In this document: piece after piece, positions 6,060 to 21,100 of the stretch
Numbering within the stretch: the first letter of the stretch is position 1
Layout of the letters: every line of letters begins with the position of its first letter
Origin: a virus
Virus record (IMG/VR): IMGVR_UViG_3300049846_000507
Location: 1-21,470 of that record
Length of the DNA: 21,470 nt
Reading direction: 5' to 3' (one strand)
Notes under the pieces: model-generated
The model's database searches: none
What the model saw: only the letters and a program-made list of their open reading frames with translations
What the model was told of the DNA's origin: nothing
Translations under genes and position numbers: made by a program

Positions 6060-7016
6060 ATGGCTAATTTAGAAGAGGCAATTGTATCAACCCTCTGGGA
6101 TCAGTCAGAAGAGATAGCGGACTTGGTGCTTCACCACAACCCGCTTACCTCAACTCTGGACGAGAAGGGAAGAATCAAGAAGATTGGCGGCGGCTATGAG
6201 CTCCGTAAGCCAGTAATGTACAACGATGCAGCAGTAGGTGGATTCTATCAGGGATATCAGGCTTTTGACCTATCCTCGATTGATGACCTTACAGCTTTCC
6301 GTTTCCAGATTAAGCAGTGCTATGAGCCTGTAGCGATGAACGGACGCGAAAAGCGTGCGAATCGTGATGAGGCTGCCTTGCTTGATCTAGCTGAGGCTAA
6401 GATGGAAGCTGCTATCGAGCGCCTAAAGAATACAGTTTCTACCTCCCTTCGTGGCGATGGAACTGGAGCTGGTGGACTAGAGTTTGACGGTGTTAAGAAA
6501 GCCGTTTCAACTTCTCCGTCTTCTGGTACTTACGGTGGAATTGATCGTACTGCTAACCTCTGGGCTAGAAACTACGCAACAAACGTAACTCTAACCGCTG
6601 CAAACGTTCAGGAGAATATTACCGATGTTATCAGCCGCTTAACTCGTGGCTCTGAGGCACCGGACCTTGGTCTTATGGATCGTACAGCCTGGAAGAATCT
6701 CCATAGCTCACTAACTGCAATTCAGCGTATTCAGCTTCCAACAAAGAAGGCTGTAGCTGGTTTCCGTGTTCTTAGCTATGACGGATGCGATTTCGTGTTC
6801 GATGGTGGATACGGATCGTCAGTTCTTGAGTCGAACTCATGCCGATTGCTCAATACTAAGTATTGGACATTCGATATGGTTCGTGGAGCTGACTTTAAGC
6901 CACTAACGCCAACTATGGACCGTCCGATTGACCAGGATGCTTTCTTCACCGTAATTATCGTTGAAGGGAACCTCTGCTGTTCAGCTCCGGCTCTCCAGGG
7001 TGTAATTTACGCTTAA
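6060..7016 (+). CDS. Major capsid protein (HK97-type fold expected)
   Basis: 318 residues, right after the scaffold and before a decoration-like gene. The N-terminal helix region runs MANLEEAIVSTLWDQ. Then come GGYELRKPVMYNDAAVGGFYQG (seen in part, residues about 46-67), the long helix with AALLDLAEAKMEAAIERLKNT (in part), a GLEFDGVKKAV segment, and GGIDRTANLWARNYA, the 'GGID...WxxN' signature common in capsid proteins of this podoviral type. The C-terminal part has LMDRTAWKNLHSS and DCxFVFDGGYG-like strands ending in a hydrophobic tail. No N-terminal delta domain of the HK97 kind is present, in agreement with a separate scaffold. Length matches the family (about 300-350). Leader hairpin described separately. 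Confidence 0.88.
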   Translation: MANLEEAIVSTLWDQSEEIADLVLHHNPLTSTLDEKGRIKKIGGGYELRKPVMYNDAAVGGFYQGYQAFDLSSIDDLTAFRFQIKQCYEPVAMNGREKRANRDEAALLDLAEAKMEAAIERLKNTVSTSLRGDGTGAGGLEFDGVKKAVSTSPSSGTYGGIDRTANLWARNYATNVTLTAANVQENITDVISRLTRGSEAPDLGLMDRTAWKNLHSSLTAIQRIQLPTKKAVAGFRVLSYDGCDFVFDGGYGSSVLESNSCRLLNTKYWTFDMVRGADFKPLTPTMDRPIDQDAFFTVIIVEGNLCCSAPALQGVIYA

Positions 7017-7560: not shown

Positions 7561-7968
7561 ATGCCTATATTAGAAGATTTGATGGGATTGGGTATGCCTG
7601 GAGAACAGGCTAGTGTGTTGTCAGCCAACACTCTTAGCGCAGCTCCAACGTATGCAGCTTCCAGCGCTCTCACAGCAAGTGGTACTTCTATTACAGACGC
7701 TTTAACACTTACCTCGTTTGTTAACTTGGTTGGTACAGCAGCGTTAAATAGCGGTGTTCGTTTGCCAATTACATGTCCAGTAGGGCAGTGTGTTTATATT
7801 GCTAATAACGGAGCTAATGCAGTTCGTGTATATGCTCAGAGTTCGCAAACAATAAACACAAGTATTGCTGGAGCTACAGGAGTTTCGGTAGCTACAACTC
7901 AAGGCGTTCAGTGTATCCGCCAGTCGGCTACCAACTGGATTGTCTTGCTACATACTAAGGCGACTTAG
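7561..7968 (+). CDS. Small beta-rich virion protein, gene bracketed by terminators
   Basis: 135 residues, GAGG ribosome binding site at 7553-7556. The N-terminus MPILEDLMGLGMPGEQASVL is a helix seen at the start of many small phage virion proteins. The rest is a Ser/Thr/Ala-rich beta domain with SGVRLPITCPVGQCVYIANNG, NAVRVYAQSSQTIN and TNWIVLLHTKAT. The core 'GVRLP...GxxVxxxNNGANAxxVY...IN' is a recognisable phage structural pattern, probably a capsid-surface or fibre-base protein. It stands alone between two strong hairpin terminators, so its transcription is separated from both neighbours. Confidence 0.68.
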   Translation: MPILEDLMGLGMPGEQASVLSANTLSAAPTYAASSALTASGTSITDALTLTSFVNLVGTAALNSGVRLPITCPVGQCVYIANNGANAVRVYAQSSQTINTSIAGATGVSVATTQGVQCIRQSATNWIVLLHTKAT

Positions 7969-7975
7969 TTTTAAA

Positions 7976-8002
7976 GGGGGAAGCAATTCCCCCGATTTTT
8001 TT
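7976..8002 (+). terminator. Second rho-independent terminator with GCAA loop
   Basis: A perfect 7-bp stem GGGGGAA (7976-7982) / TTCCCCC (7987-7993), loop GCAA (7983-7986), then GA and seven T (7996-8002). It has the same plan as the terminator at 7526-7550: G-run, GCAA loop, C-run, T-run. It begins seven bases after the stop of the 135-residue gene and ends just before the next ribosome binding region. Confidence 0.88.
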
Positions 8003-8011
8003 AGGTGATTT

Positions 8012-8266
8012 ATGCCAGATTTTACCCCAAGTAACCCAGGCGCTATGTTCCCAGCGTATAAGCTAACCGCTGTAACCCCTAGCGATGCAACAGAGCTAGT
8101 GGGCGTTAGAGCCTTATGGGTAGGCGGTGCGGGAACCGTTGTTATTATAGCTTGCAACGATACAGCTTCAGTTTCATTAACAGTGCCAGCAGGTACATTA
8201 CTTCCTATTTTTGCAAGAAAGGTTATGGCCGCTTCTAGTGCCACAAACATTGTAGCTTTTTACTAA
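8012..8266 (+). CDS. Short spike-base-like virion protein
   Basis: 84 residues, start at the ATG after an AGGTGATTT leader. The sequence runs through YKLTAVTPSDATELVGVRALWVGGAG, a strand VVIIACNDTASVSLTVPAG, and ends VMAASSATNIVAFY (the first segment is seen in full in the protein at residues 16-41 and is quoted here only as landmarks AVTPSDATEL, VRALWVGGAG). This layout of 'VTPSD..L..VRALxVGGAG...VPAGxLLPI...V.A..T.TNIxAxY' matches what I recall of the RCAP_Rcc01079-type spike base protein family of gene transfer agents and related phage proteins. No enzymatic motif. Family call is from memory and moderately sure; placement at the head surface is inference. Confidence 0.65.
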   Translation: MPDFTPSNPGAMFPAYKLTAVTPSDATELVGVRALWVGGAGTVVIIACNDTASVSLTVPAGTLLPIFARKVMAASSATNIVAFY

Positions 8267-8275
8267 AGGAGAGTT

Positions 8276-8359
8276 ATGGGCGTAGGAATAGGTACATCAG
8301 TTTCGACACCGGCAACAATTGCAGGACCAACAGAAGAAGAGCCGATAATACCAGAATAG
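8276..8359 (+). CDS. 27-residue microprotein
   Basis: A short frame ATG-TAG of 27 codons (MGVGIGTSVSTPATIAGPTE, then EEPIIPE) that fills the gap between two larger genes. It has one of the best ribosome binding sites in the window, AAAGGAGAG (8265-8273), at a proper distance from the ATG; without this frame that site would serve nothing. The N-terminal GxGxGTS stretch resembles the starts of some phage structural proteins, and the tail is acidic with prolines. No membrane segment. Function unknown; could be a small virion peptide or the remnant of a longer protein. Confidence 0.6.
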   Translation: MGVGIGTSVSTPATIAGPTEEEPIIPE

Positions 8360-8383
8360 TATTTAAAAATAACAAGGATTAAA

Positions 8384-8869
8384 ATGGCGTCTTTAGATGA
8401 CATTATAGAAGCCCTGCAAACTCGTAATAGTATAATAAAAAAAAGAAATGCTGCTCAAAAAGCATATGCACTTATGAAGGCATTTGAAACTGAGTCTGCG
8501 CCTTCCGGATCTGCGGCATACGAAATTGGGAAATACCTTACTGAAAAGGCAATCGCAGACCAAATTGATTTAAATACAGCATTTAGTTCAATGGGTGGCG
8601 TTACTGGGTCGTATCAGGCTGGAAGTTCTCCTGACCAAGTAGCATTAGAAAACTTATTAACTAATGCGCCAAATGCTCTTGCTGGACAGGAAGGGTTGTC
8701 ATACTCATTACCGGCTGCGGCTTTGGATAAAATAGCAAAGCAAAGTTTACTCGAAAGAGCTTTGTTGGATATAGATCCAGTAGCTCAATCAATAGCAAAT
8801 CCACGACCGAAGTTATCAGAACTTGATTTATTAGGGGCTTTGAAAAGCGTATTTACCTCAGAAGAGTAA
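8384..8869 (+). CDS. Hypothetical phage protein, mostly helical
   Basis: 161 residues, AAGGA (8374-8378) as ribosome binding site. I do not recognise a family. The first 60 residues look helical and basic (IIKKRNAAQKAYALMKAF, then YEIGKYLTEKAIADQ). A flexible Gly/Ser part follows (GGVTGSYQAGSSPDQ), then two more helical segments ending in LDLLGALKSVFTSEE. No signal peptide, membrane segment or catalytic motif. It is placed between small virion genes and the conserved protein at 8918, so a virion or assembly role is likely by context only. A hairpin lies in the gap just after it. Confidence 0.6.
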   Translation: MASLDDIIEALQTRNSIIKKRNAAQKAYALMKAFETESAPSGSAAYEIGKYLTEKAIADQIDLNTAFSSMGGVTGSYQAGSSPDQVALENLLTNAPNALAGQEGLSYSLPAAALDKIAKQSLLERALLDIDPVAQSIANPRPKLSELDLLGALKSVFTSEE

Positions 8870-8882
8870 AGTGTGGTATGAA

Positions 8883-8906
8883 TAAGTAGGCACTGATGCC
8901 TATTTA
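8883..8906 (+). other. Intergenic hairpin without T-tract
   Basis: TAGGCA (8887-8892) pairs with TGCCTA (8897-8902) around a CTGA loop. The stem extends outward to 8883/8906 with A-T pairs and one G-T pair, about 10 bp in all. Only three T follow within the stem and the next ribosome binding site (GGGAG) comes right after, so it is a weak terminator at best; an RNA processing or stability element is as likely. Confidence 0.45.
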
Positions 8907-8917
8907 GGGAGATAATT

Positions 8918-9568
8918 ATGGCACAAGTAGACTGGGGGAGCATAATGTCAGGACAGCAGCAGCAGAAAAAGCGCTATGCTGGAATGAACGTGCAGTTTTT
9001 CTATGCTTACAACGAGAATGAAGAGAAGTCGCTAAAAGAAGGTCGTCCTATATTTGACGAGATTCCTTCTATTAGCATCCAGGTTCCAGGTGGAGATACA
9101 ACGGTTAGACGTATTGAGCCGCAAGATATTCACGAATACCCAGAAAAGTACCAGGCTTTTATGGCTGGTTCTGAGCCTGTAACTGAAGGCACACCGCTTG
9201 CTGAGTGGCCTATGATACCAGGGACTGCCATGCGCGAGTTCCAGTATCTTGGCTTTAAAACAGTAGAGCAGGTGGCTAACGCTACAGAGGACGCCAAGCG
9301 CAAGCTAGGAACACTATCCAAGTTTGTTAAACTGGCTAAGGAGTGGTTGGCCGCAGCTAATTCTGACCAGAATGACGTGGCTAAACTCAAAGTCCAGCTA
9401 GAGCAATATCAGACAAAGTACGCAAAGTTAGAAGAGAAGTTAGAGCTTCTTATGCAGCGTATTGAGGCTAGCGAGGGTACAGATTTGCGTGATGAGCGTA
9501 CATCTGACCCGTTAGATGATGAGCCAACAGCAACGCCAAGGCTAAGGGGTAGACCAAGGAGAGTATGA
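8918..9568 (+). CDS. Conserved podoviral protein of unknown function with C-terminal coiled coil
   Basis: 216 residues with a GGGAG ribosome binding site. The conserved part is FDEIPSISIQVPGGDTTVRR followed by EPQDIHEYPEKYQAFMAGSE and VTEGTPLAEWPMI, a block I recognise from structural clusters of many podovirus-type genomes and for which no activity is established to my knowledge. After it come a helix-hairpin-like segment (LGFKTVEQVANATEDAKRKL), a coiled coil (about residues 148-185) and a basic tail ending RLRGRPRRV that may contact DNA. Position just before the head-tail adaptor suggests a head-completion role. ATGA overlap with the adaptor gene. Confidence 0.72.
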   Translation: MAQVDWGSIMSGQQQQKKRYAGMNVQFFYAYNENEEKSLKEGRPIFDEIPSISIQVPGGDTTVRRIEPQDIHEYPEKYQAFMAGSEPVTEGTPLAEWPMIPGTAMREFQYLGFKTVEQVANATEDAKRKLGTLSKFVKLAKEWLAAANSDQNDVAKLKVQLEQYQTKYAKLEEKLELLMQRIEASEGTDLRDERTSDPLDDEPTATPRLRGRPRRV

Positions 9569-10428
9569 GCATAGCTACGGTTATACAGAATGTCGCTAAC
9601 GAAGCTGGCTACACCGTAGAGTCTAATATCTTTACCTCTACAGAAACGACAACCAAGCAGCTTTTAGCGATAGCTCAACGTATAAATCGTGATATTTTTG
9701 AGGCGTATCCTTGGCCTAAGTGTTACGCCGCTGGCTCGATAACGCTGGTAGATGGGCAGTCAACCTACCCTCTACCGGCGGCTTTTTCTAATTACCAGTA
9801 CGAAACATTTTGGAATCAAAGCACTAGATGGCGTGTACTTGGCCCTATTTCTGAGCAGGACTATGCACAGCTTCAGGGCTATGGACTAATGCCTACAATT
9901 TACCAACGCTTTCAGATTAGGGGACTTAGTAATAACGAATTATTTATTAGTCCTACACCTGGAGCAAATACAGCAGGGCAGGTGCTGATATTTGAGTACA
10001 TAGCTGATAGGTCGGTAGTACCTAGAACATGGGTAACTTCTACCGCATTTCCTGCCAACTCTTACTGCATATACAACGGCAACTACTATACAACTACGGC
10101 TGGAGGCACTACAGGAGCCACAGCACCAACGCATACAAGCGGAAGCGTGTCGGATGGTGGTGTGACATGGACCTACTACAACGGCATTTATGACCAATTT
10201 AGAGCCGATACAGATACAAGCATATTTCAAGAGAAGTTACTTGAGCAGGGCATACTAGAGCGCTTTGCTCAAATACATGGACTTGATGGTGTGCAGCCAT
10301 TATTTTTGCAACAATTGCATGATGAATATGGCCGCACCAAAGCGGGTAAAGTTGTTTATGCTGGTGGGTTTAGTAGACCTACTCAGTTTGCAAGAAGTGG
10401 AATAGCTGCATTTGGGAGCTGGATATAA
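9565..10428 (+). CDS. Head-tail adaptor with an inserted carbohydrate-binding-like domain
   Basis: 287 residues; AAGGAG site (9556-9561) and ATGA overlap. The N-terminal part (residues 1-150) is an adaptor: helix VIQNVANEAGY, LLAIAQRINRDIFEAYPWPK, strands SITLVDGQSTYPLPAAF and FQIRGLSNNELFISPTPGA, FEYIADR. The C-terminal part resumes with YDQFRADTDTSIFQEKLLEQ and LERFAQ. These features fit the gp4/gp11-like connectors that bind under the portal in short-tailed phages. Between them, residues 156-205, lies a separate module with W at its start, NGNYYTTTAGGTTGATAPTH and DGGVTWTYY, the typical pattern of a small chitin/carbohydrate-binding-like domain found in many phage virion proteins. The adaptor call is good; the binding role of the insert is inferred. 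Confidence 0.8.
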   Translation: MSIATVIQNVANEAGYTVESNIFTSTETTTKQLLAIAQRINRDIFEAYPWPKCYAAGSITLVDGQSTYPLPAAFSNYQYETFWNQSTRWRVLGPISEQDYAQLQGYGLMPTIYQRFQIRGLSNNELFISPTPGANTAGQVLIFEYIADRSVVPRTWVTSTAFPANSYCIYNGNYYTTTAGGTTGATAPTHTSGSVSDGGVTWTYYNGIYDQFRADTDTSIFQEKLLEQGILERFAQIHGLDGVQPLFLQQLHDEYGRTKAGKVVYAGGFSRPTQFARSGIAAFGSWI

Positions 10429-11648
10429 TGAATGAGCAAGCGATGAATCCTAACGCTCCGGCGTTTGCAAGAAGCAATCCTAGAGCTTATTACGCTTGGC
10501 TAACTAGCCAGGGGCTAGGGCATAGAGAAGCTTTTGATCAGACTACAAGTGTTTTTGGTCAACCTAAGACGCCGCAGCAAATTGCTGAAGAACAAGCAAA
10601 AGCAAATCAGATAGGCGGATTGGCTCAAACAGGTGGGGCAATAGCTGGAGCTATAGGAACACAATATTTAGCAAGTCAATTATTCGGAAGTGGAGCGGCT
10701 GCGGCTGGTGGAACTGCTGGAGCAGCAGGAGCCGCTGGAGCTGCTGGCGCTGCTGGAGCGGCAGGAACGGCTGGTGCTGCGGGGGCTGGAGCTGCTGGCG
10801 CAGGTGCCGCAGGTGCTGGCGCTGCCGGAGCCGGAGCAGGAGCAGCCGGTGCGGCCGGAACAGGTGCCGCCGGAGCTTCTACATTAGGAGCTATAGGAGC
10901 CGTAGCTTTGCCAGTGGCAGCTATTGCATTAGCAGCTAATAATGCCTGGGAAACGGGCATGAAAGATATTGTGCGTGGTCGTGGCACTCGTGAAGATTGG
11001 ATAAATCAAGGCGTAAATATGTTTGGTGGCGCTGCTCCTAATCTTGCGCTTCGCTTAATGGGCAAGCGCTCTATTGGTGCCATGATGACTTCAGGCAAGT
11101 CTAATGCTCAAGCTTTACGCGATGATTTTCGTGGTGATTTAAAAGAGTCAGGGGTAGCAGATAAAGACTACATGGTTACTCTTGCCGATGGTTCTAAGTT
11201 TAACATTGGACTAGACGGTAAGACTAAATACAAAAATATAGATGAAAAAACTACTCGCAATGCTTGGGATGTAGATTGGTCTAATCCATTAGCTAAACTT
11301 GCATCTGAAAAGATAGATCCAATGATTCGTAAAATATACGGAGCAGATGATCCAAAGGCTAAGTTTTTTCCTGGTCAATACACAGGAATGTTAGTCAACG
11401 CTGCTACAAGTAATGCTAAAAACGAAGCTGAGGTAATGGCAAACATTGAAGCCATGATGGGCAAGTCAAAATTCGCTCAACAAGCTGGAGTAGGTATTAC
11501 TCCACCGAAGCCACAAAAGCCACCAAAAGGCGAAGTGGTTCGTGTATCCCCTGGTATGTATATGAATGACAAGGGACAAGTTGGTCCAGCTAAAACAGTT
11601 AAGGAAGCACTAAGGGCAAACTATAGCAAAACTAAGGAGAAGAAATAA
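10428..11648 (+). CDS. Virion protein with Gly-Ala-Ala tract and hydrophobic segment, probable internal (ejection) protein
   Basis: 406 residues; GGGAG (10414-10418) precedes the ATG, which overlaps the adaptor stop. N-terminal NPRAYYAWLTSQGLGHREAF is followed by a Gly/Ala segment (GGAIAGAIGTQYLASQLFG), then a collagen-like Gly-X-Y tract with almost only Ala (residues 94-150), then a hydrophobic stretch LGAIGAVALPVAAIALAAN (153-171). The C-terminal half is soluble (RNAWDVDWSNPLAKLASEKI and a basic tail) and has RVSPGMY at 372-378, a motif also in the next gene. Gly/Ala-rich, membrane-prone proteins between adaptor and nozzle genes are common in podovirus-type phages and are often internal proteins. 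No enzyme motif. Function inferred. Confidence 0.6.
   Translation: MNEQAMNPNAPAFARSNPRAYYAWLTSQGLGHREAFDQTTSVFGQPKTPQQIAEEQAKANQIGGLAQTGGAIAGAIGTQYLASQLFGSGAAAAGGTAGAAGAAGAAGAAGAAGTAGAAGAGAAGAGAAGAGAAGAGAGAAGAAGTGAAGASTLGAIGAVALPVAAIALAANNAWETGMKDIVRGRGTREDWINQGVNMFGGAAPNLALRLMGKRSIGAMMTSGKSNAQALRDDFRGDLKESGVADKDYMVTLADGSKFNIGLDGKTKYKNIDEKTTRNAWDVDWSNPLAKLASEKIDPMIRKIYGADDPKAKFFPGQYTGMLVNAATSNAKNEAEVMANIEAMMGKSKFAQQAGVGITPPKPQKPPKGEVVRVSPGMYMNDKGQVGPAKTVKEALRANYSKTKEKK
10707..10877 (+). repeat. Gly-Ala-Ala coding repeat
   Basis: An irregular GC-rich triplet array (GCN/GGN codons) encoding about 57 residues of GAA, GAG and GTA triplets. Synonymous codons vary between units, so it is not a recent exact tandem expansion. 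It produces long proline/alanine-rich open frames on the opposite strand that are artefacts of the base composition. Confidence 0.8.
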
Positions 11649-19236: not shown

Positions 19237-19496
19237 TGAACTGGGAACAAACTTTACCACCTGGAATACTTGCCGCATCTGCATCAGATGAGCTTATTGC
19301 TCAATCAATTAGAACGTGGCGTAATTTTAAATTGGCTGCATCTGATTGGACGCAACTACCTGACGTAAACCTAACTAACAAATGGGATTGGGCTGTGTAT
19401 CGTCAGCAGTTGCGTGACATGATGCAGCAGCACTCTGACCCTAAACTGATTGTATTTCCAACAGCTCCTGGTGTTTCAGTTACGATTACGCCATGA
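19236..19496 (+). CDS. Tail assembly chaperone-like small protein
   Basis: 86 residues, starting in the fibre stop (TAATG). The centre reads RTWRNFKLAASDWTQLPDVN, then WAVYRQQLRDM and a late FPTAPG. This 'R...LxASDWTQLPD...W..YRQxLRD...P..P' pattern is the Phage_tail_APC (phage tail assembly chaperone) motif found next to fibre genes. In such families the protein helps fold or assemble fibres, or is a small fibre-associated domain. Its place directly after the fibre fits that. ATGA overlap with the next gene. Confidence 0.78.
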   Translation: MNWEQTLPPGILAASASDELIAQSIRTWRNFKLAASDWTQLPDVNLTNKWDWAVYRQQLRDMMQQHSDPKLIVFPTAPGVSVTITP

Positions 19497-19909
19497 AATT
19501 AAGACTTGTCAGAGTATCAGAGTACAACGGCGCAACTATGGGCGTGTTATGTATCGATGACATGCCTGAGTTCGTTACGTTGGAAGATGCCTGGCGAGAT
19601 AATGAACGTAAGATTAGCTGCATACCTGTAGGCCGGTATAAGGTTAAGCCAAGACAAAGCCCTAAGTTTGGCAGAACGTGGCAAGTGATGGACGTACCAG
19701 AGCGGGACCATATCTTGTTTCATGCTGGTAATACGCATAAGGATACGCATGGTTGCATCTTGCTTGGTATGCAGTTTGGTAAAATTGGAAGCGAGTCGGC
19801 TATCTTAGCTAGTAGGTCCGCCTTTAATAGGTTTATGGATCTAATGGCGGGTGCTCCCGAAGCAGAGTTAATTGTGATTGACGCTTACGGTGGAGGCAGG
19901 GTGCACTAA
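19493..19909 (+). CDS. DUF5675 family protein, possible cell-wall enzyme of the lysis cassette
   Basis: 138 residues. The layout fits DUF5675: LVRVSEYNGATMGVLCID, VTLEDAWRDNERKISCIPVG, GRYKV, then VPERDHILFHAGN and DTHGCILLG. The pair His77 (HAGN, 77-80) and His86-Gly87-Cys88 (HGC) after a 'IPxGxY' strand resembles the catalytic His and Cys arrangement of YkuD-type L,D-transpeptidases. DUF5675 proteins have no activity that I know to be shown. The gene lies between fibre genes and the membrane, exported and holin genes, so a peptidoglycan role is an inference. No signal peptide. Overlaps the previous gene as ATGA. Confidence 0.75.
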   Translation: MKLRLVRVSEYNGATMGVLCIDDMPEFVTLEDAWRDNERKISCIPVGRYKVKPRQSPKFGRTWQVMDVPERDHILFHAGNTHKDTHGCILLGMQFGKIGSESAILASRSAFNRFMDLMAGAPEAELIVIDAYGGGRVH

Positions 19910-20148
19910 TGACTGGCGACTTTACGGAAGTTAAATACTGGTTTGATATACTTATAAAGGCGGTAATAGGTGTATTTGTTTCTCTTATTAGCATGGATTA
20001 CAGAGCGGTTAAGAATAGTCTGCACGAGTTGGAAAACCACAAATACCATGTATCGGCTGATGTCCAGGTTATTCAGACGGAACTAGCCTACATTAAAGGC
20101 CGGTTGGATAAGATTGATTCTAAGCTTGATAAGGCGTTAGACAGATGA
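19909..20148 (+). CDS. Membrane-anchored coiled-coil protein, lysis-cassette candidate
   Basis: 79 residues; GGAGG site about ten bases before the ATG, which overlaps the previous stop. A hydrophobic segment (about residues 11-29, YWFDILIKAVIGVFVSLIS) is followed by a charged coiled coil to the C-terminus (VQVIQTELAYIKGRLDKIDS). The plan of one N-terminal membrane helix plus a soluble coiled coil fits several small phage lysis proteins: an inner-membrane spanin-like protein, an antiholin, or a holin partner. There is no lipobox and no obvious outer-membrane partner gene, so I do not call it a spanin. Placement next to the exported protein and holin supports a lysis role. Confidence 0.6.
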   Translation: MTGDFTEVKYWFDILIKAVIGVFVSLISMDYRAVKNSLHELENHKYHVSADVQVIQTELAYIKGRLDKIDSKLDKALDR

Positions 20149-20957
20149 GATGGGTTACTGCCATTTGTGCCTTATTGCTTTCTTTAGCATCTGCTCATGC
20201 TGCCCCTAGTTTGCTAGGGATATGTCACAAAGATTTTAACTGTGATGGGGTAAATAAGCTCTATAGCGGGCAGGATAAGCTAGTTATTAGTTACCTTGAG
20301 AATACCTTTGGCAACGAGTGCAAGTGCCTTACCCGCCTGTTAAGCGACCCTAGACCTAAAGTTATACGCGCCCACCTAATACAAAGCCCATGCATGAGAA
20401 ACAAGCGCTGTGGGCGTTATGAGGCGTTATGGGGCTATACAGCGGCGTCAGCTAATAGAGCTATAAAGAATCCTAAAAGTAGGTTACGCACAAGATTTCA
20501 ACAAACTGTGGATAACTTTAACCGGCGTATATCAGGGGTTAGTAATTTGACCTGCTATGTCAGCCCATGCCTGGAGTGTGACTTGAATGCGAATAGTCGA
20601 AGAGTACTTATCGATATTGTATCTGCTGCTTTGCCTGTGTGTAACGTGGTGGACAATCCATACCGGCAACGCTGCCTCCCTGGATATACCTGTGAGCAAC
20701 ACGGAGAAAATCCTACTTTATCTGCCCCTTGTATAGTTGATATGGACGGTAGCGACGGGGTTACTATCGACTTAAAGAAATGGGTGGCCAAATACAAGCA
20801 ATGTGATTTATCCTTTTATTGGGAGCCCTGGATGAATTGCATACGGGGTGAGTTTGTAGATCCTAGAAGCCGCAACTGTAGTTACGGTAAGTCTATATTT
20901 GAAGGTGCTATATGTCGCTCATTCTTGCATCCATCCTCCGCCACTTGCTCACGTTAG
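20145..20957 (+). CDS. Exported cysteine-rich protein in the lysis cassette, possible hydrolase
   Basis: 270 residues, ATGA overlap with the previous gene. A clear Sec signal peptide is at residues 1-19 (MRWVTAICALLLSLASAHA, predicted cut before APS). The mature part has 18 Cys, an even number, as expected for disulfides in the periplasm. Landmarks: VIRAHLIQSPC, GRYEALWGYTAASANRAI, VSPCLECDLN, VCNVVDNPYR, CEQHGEN, CIVDMDGSDG, FYWEPWMNCIRGEF and FVDPRSRNC. The alternation of strands ending in acidic or polar motifs with helices hints at a TIM-barrel glycoside-hydrolase-like fold, with Glu in SPCLE and Asp/Glu in DMDG and WEPW as candidate active-site residues. I do not assign a known family. 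Between a membrane protein and a holin, it may be an exported endolysin or lysis factor; that is inference. Confidence 0.65.
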   Translation: MRWVTAICALLLSLASAHAAPSLLGICHKDFNCDGVNKLYSGQDKLVISYLENTFGNECKCLTRLLSDPRPKVIRAHLIQSPCMRNKRCGRYEALWGYTAASANRAIKNPKSRLRTRFQQTVDNFNRRISGVSNLTCYVSPCLECDLNANSRRVLIDIVSAALPVCNVVDNPYRQRCLPGYTCEQHGENPTLSAPCIVDMDGSDGVTIDLKKWVAKYKQCDLSFYWEPWMNCIRGEFVDPRSRNCSYGKSIFEGAICRSFLHPSSATCSR

Positions 20958-21100
20958 CCGCTGGCGCATTAGTAACCGTTGGTGTAGCTGAGCATGATGC
21001 TGCCAACCTAGCTGCTGCTGCTGAACCTGTACTTGGTGGAGCTATCCTTTACGGTGCTTCCCAGGCTTGGTCAATTATTGAGAAGAAGAAGAAGCGCTAG
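20912..21100 (+). CDS. Small holin
   Basis: 62 residues, starting inside the exported-protein gene (46-base overlap, different frame), with AAGG shortly upstream. There are two hydrophobic segments: residues about 2-26 (SLILASILRHLLTLAAGALV and on) and 39-56 (PVLGGAILYGASQAWSII), with a strongly basic C-terminus KKKKR. The 'RHLLTxxxGALVxxGV...GG...WSxxxKKK' plan matches small phage holins (Pam3-gp28-like as I recall). It would form the inner-membrane lesion that starts lysis. Last gene on the + strand; its stop shares CTAG with the convergent gene. Confidence 0.75.
   Translation: MSLILASILRHLLTLAAGALVTVGVAEHDAANLAAAAEPVLGGAILYGASQAWSIIEKKKKR

Follow-up and report, generated by a model that had tools for sequence, protein, structure and literature searches.

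The window, that is the whole stretch of DNA analysed here, is an IMG/VR virus record of 21,470 bases. The gene under study, hereafter the target, lies in this record within a run of genes on the plus strand:

19493-19909, plus strand: DUF5675 protein with a YkuD-like H...HGC motif (E 1.8e-34)
19909-20148, plus strand: 79-aa protein with an N-terminal transmembrane (TM) segment and then a coiled coil, i-spanin-like in topology, directly upstream of the target
20145-20957, plus strand: target open reading frame for a putative secreted 18-cysteine TIM-barrel protein (270 aa, stop codon included in the coordinates)
20145-20201, plus strand: putative Sec signal peptide MRWVTAICALLLSLASAHA, residues 1-19, assigned from sequence, with a hydrophobic N-terminus and an A-X-A type cleavage site in the homologs
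20202-20954, plus strand: predicted mature barrel domain (AlphaFold2, pLDDT 93.7, pTM 0.90)
20912-21100, plus strand: 62-aa holin of the Phage_holin_10 family (Pfam E 1.7e-8)

The ATG start codon of the target shares bases with the stop codon of the upstream coiled-coil gene (ATGA), and the holin gene begins some 45 nt before the target gene ends, an overlap conserved across the cassettes. The N-terminus of the product, MRWVTAICALLLSLASAHA followed by APS, has the features of a Sec-type signal, in which a short stretch of positive charge precedes a hydrophobic core and the A-H-A cleavage site, and the protein would accordingly be exported. The mature part contains exactly 18 cysteines, with a nineteenth residing in the signal peptide. 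The initial annotation, which had described at this position an exported protein with a signal peptide ending in AHA and 18 mature cysteines, encoded between a membrane coiled-coil gene and a holin gene, is confirmed on these points, as it is for the motifs VIRAHL, SPCLE, VVDNP, EQHG, DMDG and WEPW.

The target reading frame is far from chance, because it is kept in 126 full-length homologs, with identity down to about 20-23%, and 22 columns are fully invariant in an alignment of 80 representatives. Relatives are present on more than 100 IMG/VR contigs (108 by one motif search, and more than 108 among the matches listed of a pattern scan). The same note had been unable to name a family, and indeed neither the target nor its homologs find a family match in Pfam, PHROGs, NCBIfam or PDB sequences; specifically, comparison of 80 members with Pfam and NCBIfam gave no glycoside hydrolase (GH) match, and PF00150 is absent from the window. 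A tblastn search of 50,697 phage records (INPHARED) with the window protein and five divergent members returned no relative. In GTDB genomes, no relative of the close family was detected and the far family, described below, gave one contig, in a proteobacterial MAG. Three clear relatives were retrieved from BFVD (A0A6J5M538, A0A6J5SYH0 and A0A6J5MYV4), uncharacterised proteins of uncultured Caudovirales phages that carry no function or family label; they share the fold of the target (Foldseek E 7e-16 to 2e-12, 23-29% identity) and are probably true relatives. No description of the family was found in the open-access literature.

Elsewhere in the window, positions 6060-7016 encode the major capsid protein, with 26-33% identity to those of Mx8, Bradyrhizobium, Stenotrophomonas, Ruegeria and Microcystis phages, a distant kinship pointing to a Gram-negative host. 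The product of 12271-13875 matches phrog_5107, labelled 'amidase' (E 1.4e-52), yet it is located among structural genes, and the label may be wrong. In another record (G023, loci L265/L266), the target is found at both ends of the 35,040 bases, in overlapping parts, which suggests that the genome is complete, at about 34.4 kb, and has redundant ends.

The cysteines of the family are lost in pairs. Across 66 representatives, which are related by descent so that co-loss counts are not independent events, C33-C61, C83-C89, C137-C166 and C196-C220 always disappear together, and C232-C245, C257-C268 and C142-C145 do so in nearly all cases. Among 135,135 matchings of these 14 variable cysteines, the proposed pairing alone gives the best score. 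In a far branch of the family C27 and C59 are lost together, as are C177 and C183 by the same profile alignment. From this pattern we infer nine disulfides in the mature target, in agreement with the secreted, disulfide-rich character first proposed; such a number fits the oxidising periplasm.

The far branch itself consists of proteins of about 327-333 aa, with no signal peptide, with the cysteine pairs mostly lost and with an extra C-terminal region. Its link to the target is given by profile comparison (E 5e-13 for a 327-aa form), and its members include:

L283, 4339-5319, minus strand: far-branch member
L333, 5169-6194: far-branch member
L335, 5989-6999: far-branch member

The order DUF5675, TM/coiled coil, target and holin is kept in 73 of 75 distinct loci; the two exceptions are each without one outer gene, and one of them is at a contig end. 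When loci are scanned from the conserved holin motif, the target is found directly upstream in 106 and is absent there in 6. Linkage to a holin within a lysis cassette, one of the traits of the endolysin class, is therefore observed for the target. The protein family to which it belongs is new and well supported, and its association with phage lysis genes is strong. Constant pairing with holin genes had been named as a check in the initial annotation; pairing with lysis genes is near-constant, and a few relatives lie away from them. In L279, L282, L283 and L300 the far form is encoded on the opposite strand, at a distance of about 2-3 kb from the cassette. L151, a contig of 59.9 kb, bears a tandem pair with long C-terminal extensions (7732-9057, 442 aa, and 9056-10501, 482 aa) that is flanked by replication-type genes and remote from lysis genes.

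What changes around the target is its partner lysin. In the window and in most relatives this is the adjacent DUF5675 protein, probably a companion peptidoglycan enzyme, and some longer contigs also have a TM-anchored SLT elsewhere. The best phage-record match of the window DUF5675 protein is in a 5-kb Microviridae record, MW202581 (46.6% identity). Among divergent relatives the partner is an SLT transglycosylase (L249, L243, L193, L202), a GH24 lysozyme (L188, L209), an M15 peptidase (L199) or DUF5675 (L166), so that the linkage of the target to lysis survives exchange among four unrelated lysin types. Moreover, the secreted form occurs in three contigs of 32-34 kb (G015, G030, G031) where the only peptidoglycan-hydrolase domain found is an SLT, borne by a probable virion protein longer than 1100 aa, and where DUF5675, phage lysozyme, M15_3 and Amidase_2 are missing. 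A similar picture is seen in a contig with the far form (G028), where the SLT is in a 779-aa frame and those four domains are likewise absent. Checks of these contigs for GH19 and GH108, which had no positive control, gave no match, and an unrecognised endolysin may be present in them. The idea of a target purely accessory to other endolysins was dropped on the basis of these four contigs. Taken together, the changing partners and the contigs with the secreted form indicate an accessory role in some phages, with others showing no lysin candidate besides this protein. The earlier proposal of a lysis enzyme or endolysin is thus sustained as far as linkage to the lysis cassette is concerned, but, as another probable lysin adjoins the target in the window and in many relatives, the protein need not be the endolysin.

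A possibility that we regard as unlikely, while giving it real weight, is that the target occupies the slot of a spanin, being a periplasmic enzyme that acts on outer-membrane or surface glycan (LPS, exopolysaccharide) in the last step of lysis, with the neighbouring DUF5675, SLT, GH24 or M15 protein as the endolysin. Its coexistence with four unrelated lysins would be understandable on these terms, as would the TM/coiled-coil gene of i-spanin-like topology directly upstream and the fact that inspection of 74 loci revealed no conserved lipobox protein within the cassette. In addition, identifiable spanins are missing from 13% of Gram-negative Caudovirales, and alternative outer-membrane disruptors are an open question (PMC12819732). 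On the other hand, several lineages show no other free-standing lysin, and the signal-less far form suits a holin-released enzyme better. A candidate o-spanin also exists: in longer relatives a 60-aa lipoprotein is conserved on the other strand, 5-6 kb downstream and beside the TM-anchored SLT, and in L188 and L209 a lipoprotein is found directly downstream of the target relative. The statement that these phages are devoid of an o-spanin candidate was dropped for this reason, and therefore the claim that the target replaces a spanin cannot be made. An opposite-strand block at L274:7730-8919, conserved with equivalents in L257, L259, L264 and L268, comprises a secreted protein of about 106 aa, a lipoprotein of about 60 aa (SGCTGMEVGGKLWVSRVDERQESQ), a 54-aa TM protein and a TM-anchored SLT next to RecT; it is possibly a second envelope module.

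The preferred reading, a Sec-exported enzyme hydrolysing envelope glycan at the lysis stage, draws on the predicted fold. An AlphaFold2 model of the mature chain built on 80 diverse homologs reached the pLDDT and pTM values given above; an earlier one, on 45 close homologs, had a pLDDT of only 75.7. The better model alternates alpha and beta elements, with strands at residues 46-51, 72-77, 135-140, 167-170, 182-186, 196-199 and 222-225 and an N-terminal bridge near residue 21, that is, seven strands which together with the bridge yield an eight-strand pattern. Foldseek comparison of this model with the PDB returned mostly TIM barrels, with a Klebsiella mannanase at the top (E 5e-3, TMq 0.50), an L-ribulose 3-epimerase in second place, and further matches to GH29, GH2 and GH5 enzymes and to non-glycosidase epimerase and aldolase-type barrels. 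A GH35 match of the first model (E 9e-4) did not recur with the better one and is not relied on. An eight-stranded alpha/beta barrel is thus a well-supported prediction, in line with the possible barrel of the initial annotation. Its further suggestion of a glycoside-hydrolase-like protein is retained with moderate support: glycosidase is the likeliest class and most fold matches are glycosidases, but its scores against PDB folds are modest.

In 126 full-length homologs, R75, E144, R152, D170, E184, H186, D199, D201, W226 and N231 are invariant. The motifs at the predicted strand ends are:

20367-20375, plus strand: R75-x-H77, end of strand 3 (R75 in 126/126, H77 in 125/126; both kept in far relatives)
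20574-20576, plus strand: E144, end of strand 4, candidate acid/base (126/126; kept in far relatives)
20694-20705, plus strand: E184-x-H186-G187, end of strand 6 (126/126; kept in far relatives)
20739-20750, plus strand: D199-x-D201-G202, end of strand 7 (both aspartates 126/126; in far relatives D199 is replaced by S and D201 is kept)
20820-20837, plus strand: W226-E227-P-W-M-N231, end of strand 8 (W226 and N231 kept, E227 variable)

Nine of the 14 invariant polar or aromatic residues are located at the C-terminal ends of strands (hypergeometric p 0.001), as expected for a TIM-barrel pocket, and E144 is flanked by the putative C142-C145 bridge. The far branch retains R75, H77, E144, E184, H186, G187, D201, G202, W226 and N231, with N at position 170 and S at 199. 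Conservation of the acidic motif residues, whose substitution would have counted against the original reading, is true of E144, E184 and D201 throughout, but E227 of WEPW and D204 vary among the 126 homologs and D199 is lost in the most distant relatives. As universal catalytic residues, E227 and D204 were rejected for their variability, and D170 and D199 for their replacement in far relatives. Since these relatives keep E144 and D201 and change 170 and 199, the most economical catalytic pair is E144 on strand 4 and D201 on strand 7, the latter as candidate nucleophile.

The same residues bear on a second, rather improbable alternative, namely that the protein acts on the envelope as a metal-dependent TIM-barrel enzyme whose chemistry is that of an isomerase, a deacetylase or a phosphodiesterase-like protein, with an E-D-H-D arrangement on strands 4-5-6-7 (E144, D170, H186, D199/D201). 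All these positions are invariant in the 126 homologs, and the epimerase ranks second among the fold matches. The asparagine and serine of the far relatives weaken this metal quartet, given that E144, E184, H186 and D201 stay, and glycosidases make up the majority of fold matches.

In L335 the far form is preceded by a coiled-coil gene that closely resembles its counterpart in L205, where the secreted form comes next, and the place behind the tail-fibre gene is the same; in L333, too, a signal-less, cysteine-poor relative is found in that slot. The alternation of secreted and cytosolic forms at one slot is as expected of a periplasm-acting enzyme that leaves the cytoplasm by Sec or through the holin lesion, and argues against a purely structural or antiholin role. 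A non-catalytic periplasmic holin regulator (antiholin) or superinfection-exclusion protein, to which export and the adjoining, overlapping holin gene might point, is consequently very improbable, in view also of the several different holin-like partners and of an enzyme-like pocket conserved to about 20% identity. More tentatively, the family could be a new GH family serving as phage endolysin at one conserved slot with two export modes, one through Sec with nine disulfides and the other cytosolic, cysteine-poor and holin-dependent.

Catalysis, its glycosidic chemistry, its substrate and its timing are what we infer from these features. In the reading that we favour, to which we give about an even chance, the target is an undescribed Sec-exported lysis-stage TIM-barrel enzyme with nine disulfides and an E144/D201 pocket that hydrolyses envelope glycan. 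Made from a gene of the lysis cassette, which follows the tail genes, the protein would leave by Sec, be cleaved after AHA and fold in the periplasm into a compact eight-stranded barrel braced by the disulfides. At the C-terminal mouth of this barrel, a pocket in which E144 and D201 are helped by R75/H77, E184/H186 and W226/N231 would hydrolyse envelope glycan, most probably peptidoglycan strands, acting when the holin fires, alongside or, in some phages, in place of a conventional endolysin. Distant relatives, which have neither signal nor disulfides, would serve the same purpose but start from the cytosol, presumably being released by a holin.

What appears to be a lysis protein family, present on more than 100 environmental phage contigs, is missing from Pfam, PHROGs, NCBIfam and INPHARED. 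As an endolysin, the protein would join GH25 as a further TIM-barrel class and reveal a locus that switches between Sec and holin export; an action on the outer membrane would instead partly answer how phages with no recognisable spanins finish lysis.

With spanins and disruptins the target shares secretion and a position between lysin and holin, but it is neither a lipoprotein nor a TM protein nor a short cationic peptide, and has a large enzyme-like domain. In particular, the lipobox and lipoylated cysteine of o-spanins and u-spanins are not found: the cleavage site is the SPase I-type AHA, and C27 is preceded by LGI, LGM, LAL and similar. GH25 phage lysozymes are known TIM-barrel endolysins and resemble the target as barrel-shaped phage lysins; they differ in that the target has no Pfam GH25 match and D-x-E is absent, residue 142 being C, V or M. 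In clan GH-A (GH5, GH26, GH2, GH35), a catalytic Glu at the end of strand 4 is combined with a Glu at the end of strand 7. The target departs from this clan in having Asp (D199/D201) rather than Glu on strand 7 and no Asn before the strand-4 Glu, in giving no sequence or GH profile match and weak fold scores, and in its size of only about 250 aa with nine putative disulfides. What it would share with clan GH-A, with strands taken from the AlphaFold2 model, is the (beta/alpha)8 barrel, a Glu at the end of strand 4, a carboxylate at the end of strand 7, His on strands 3 and 6 and Trp on strand 8.
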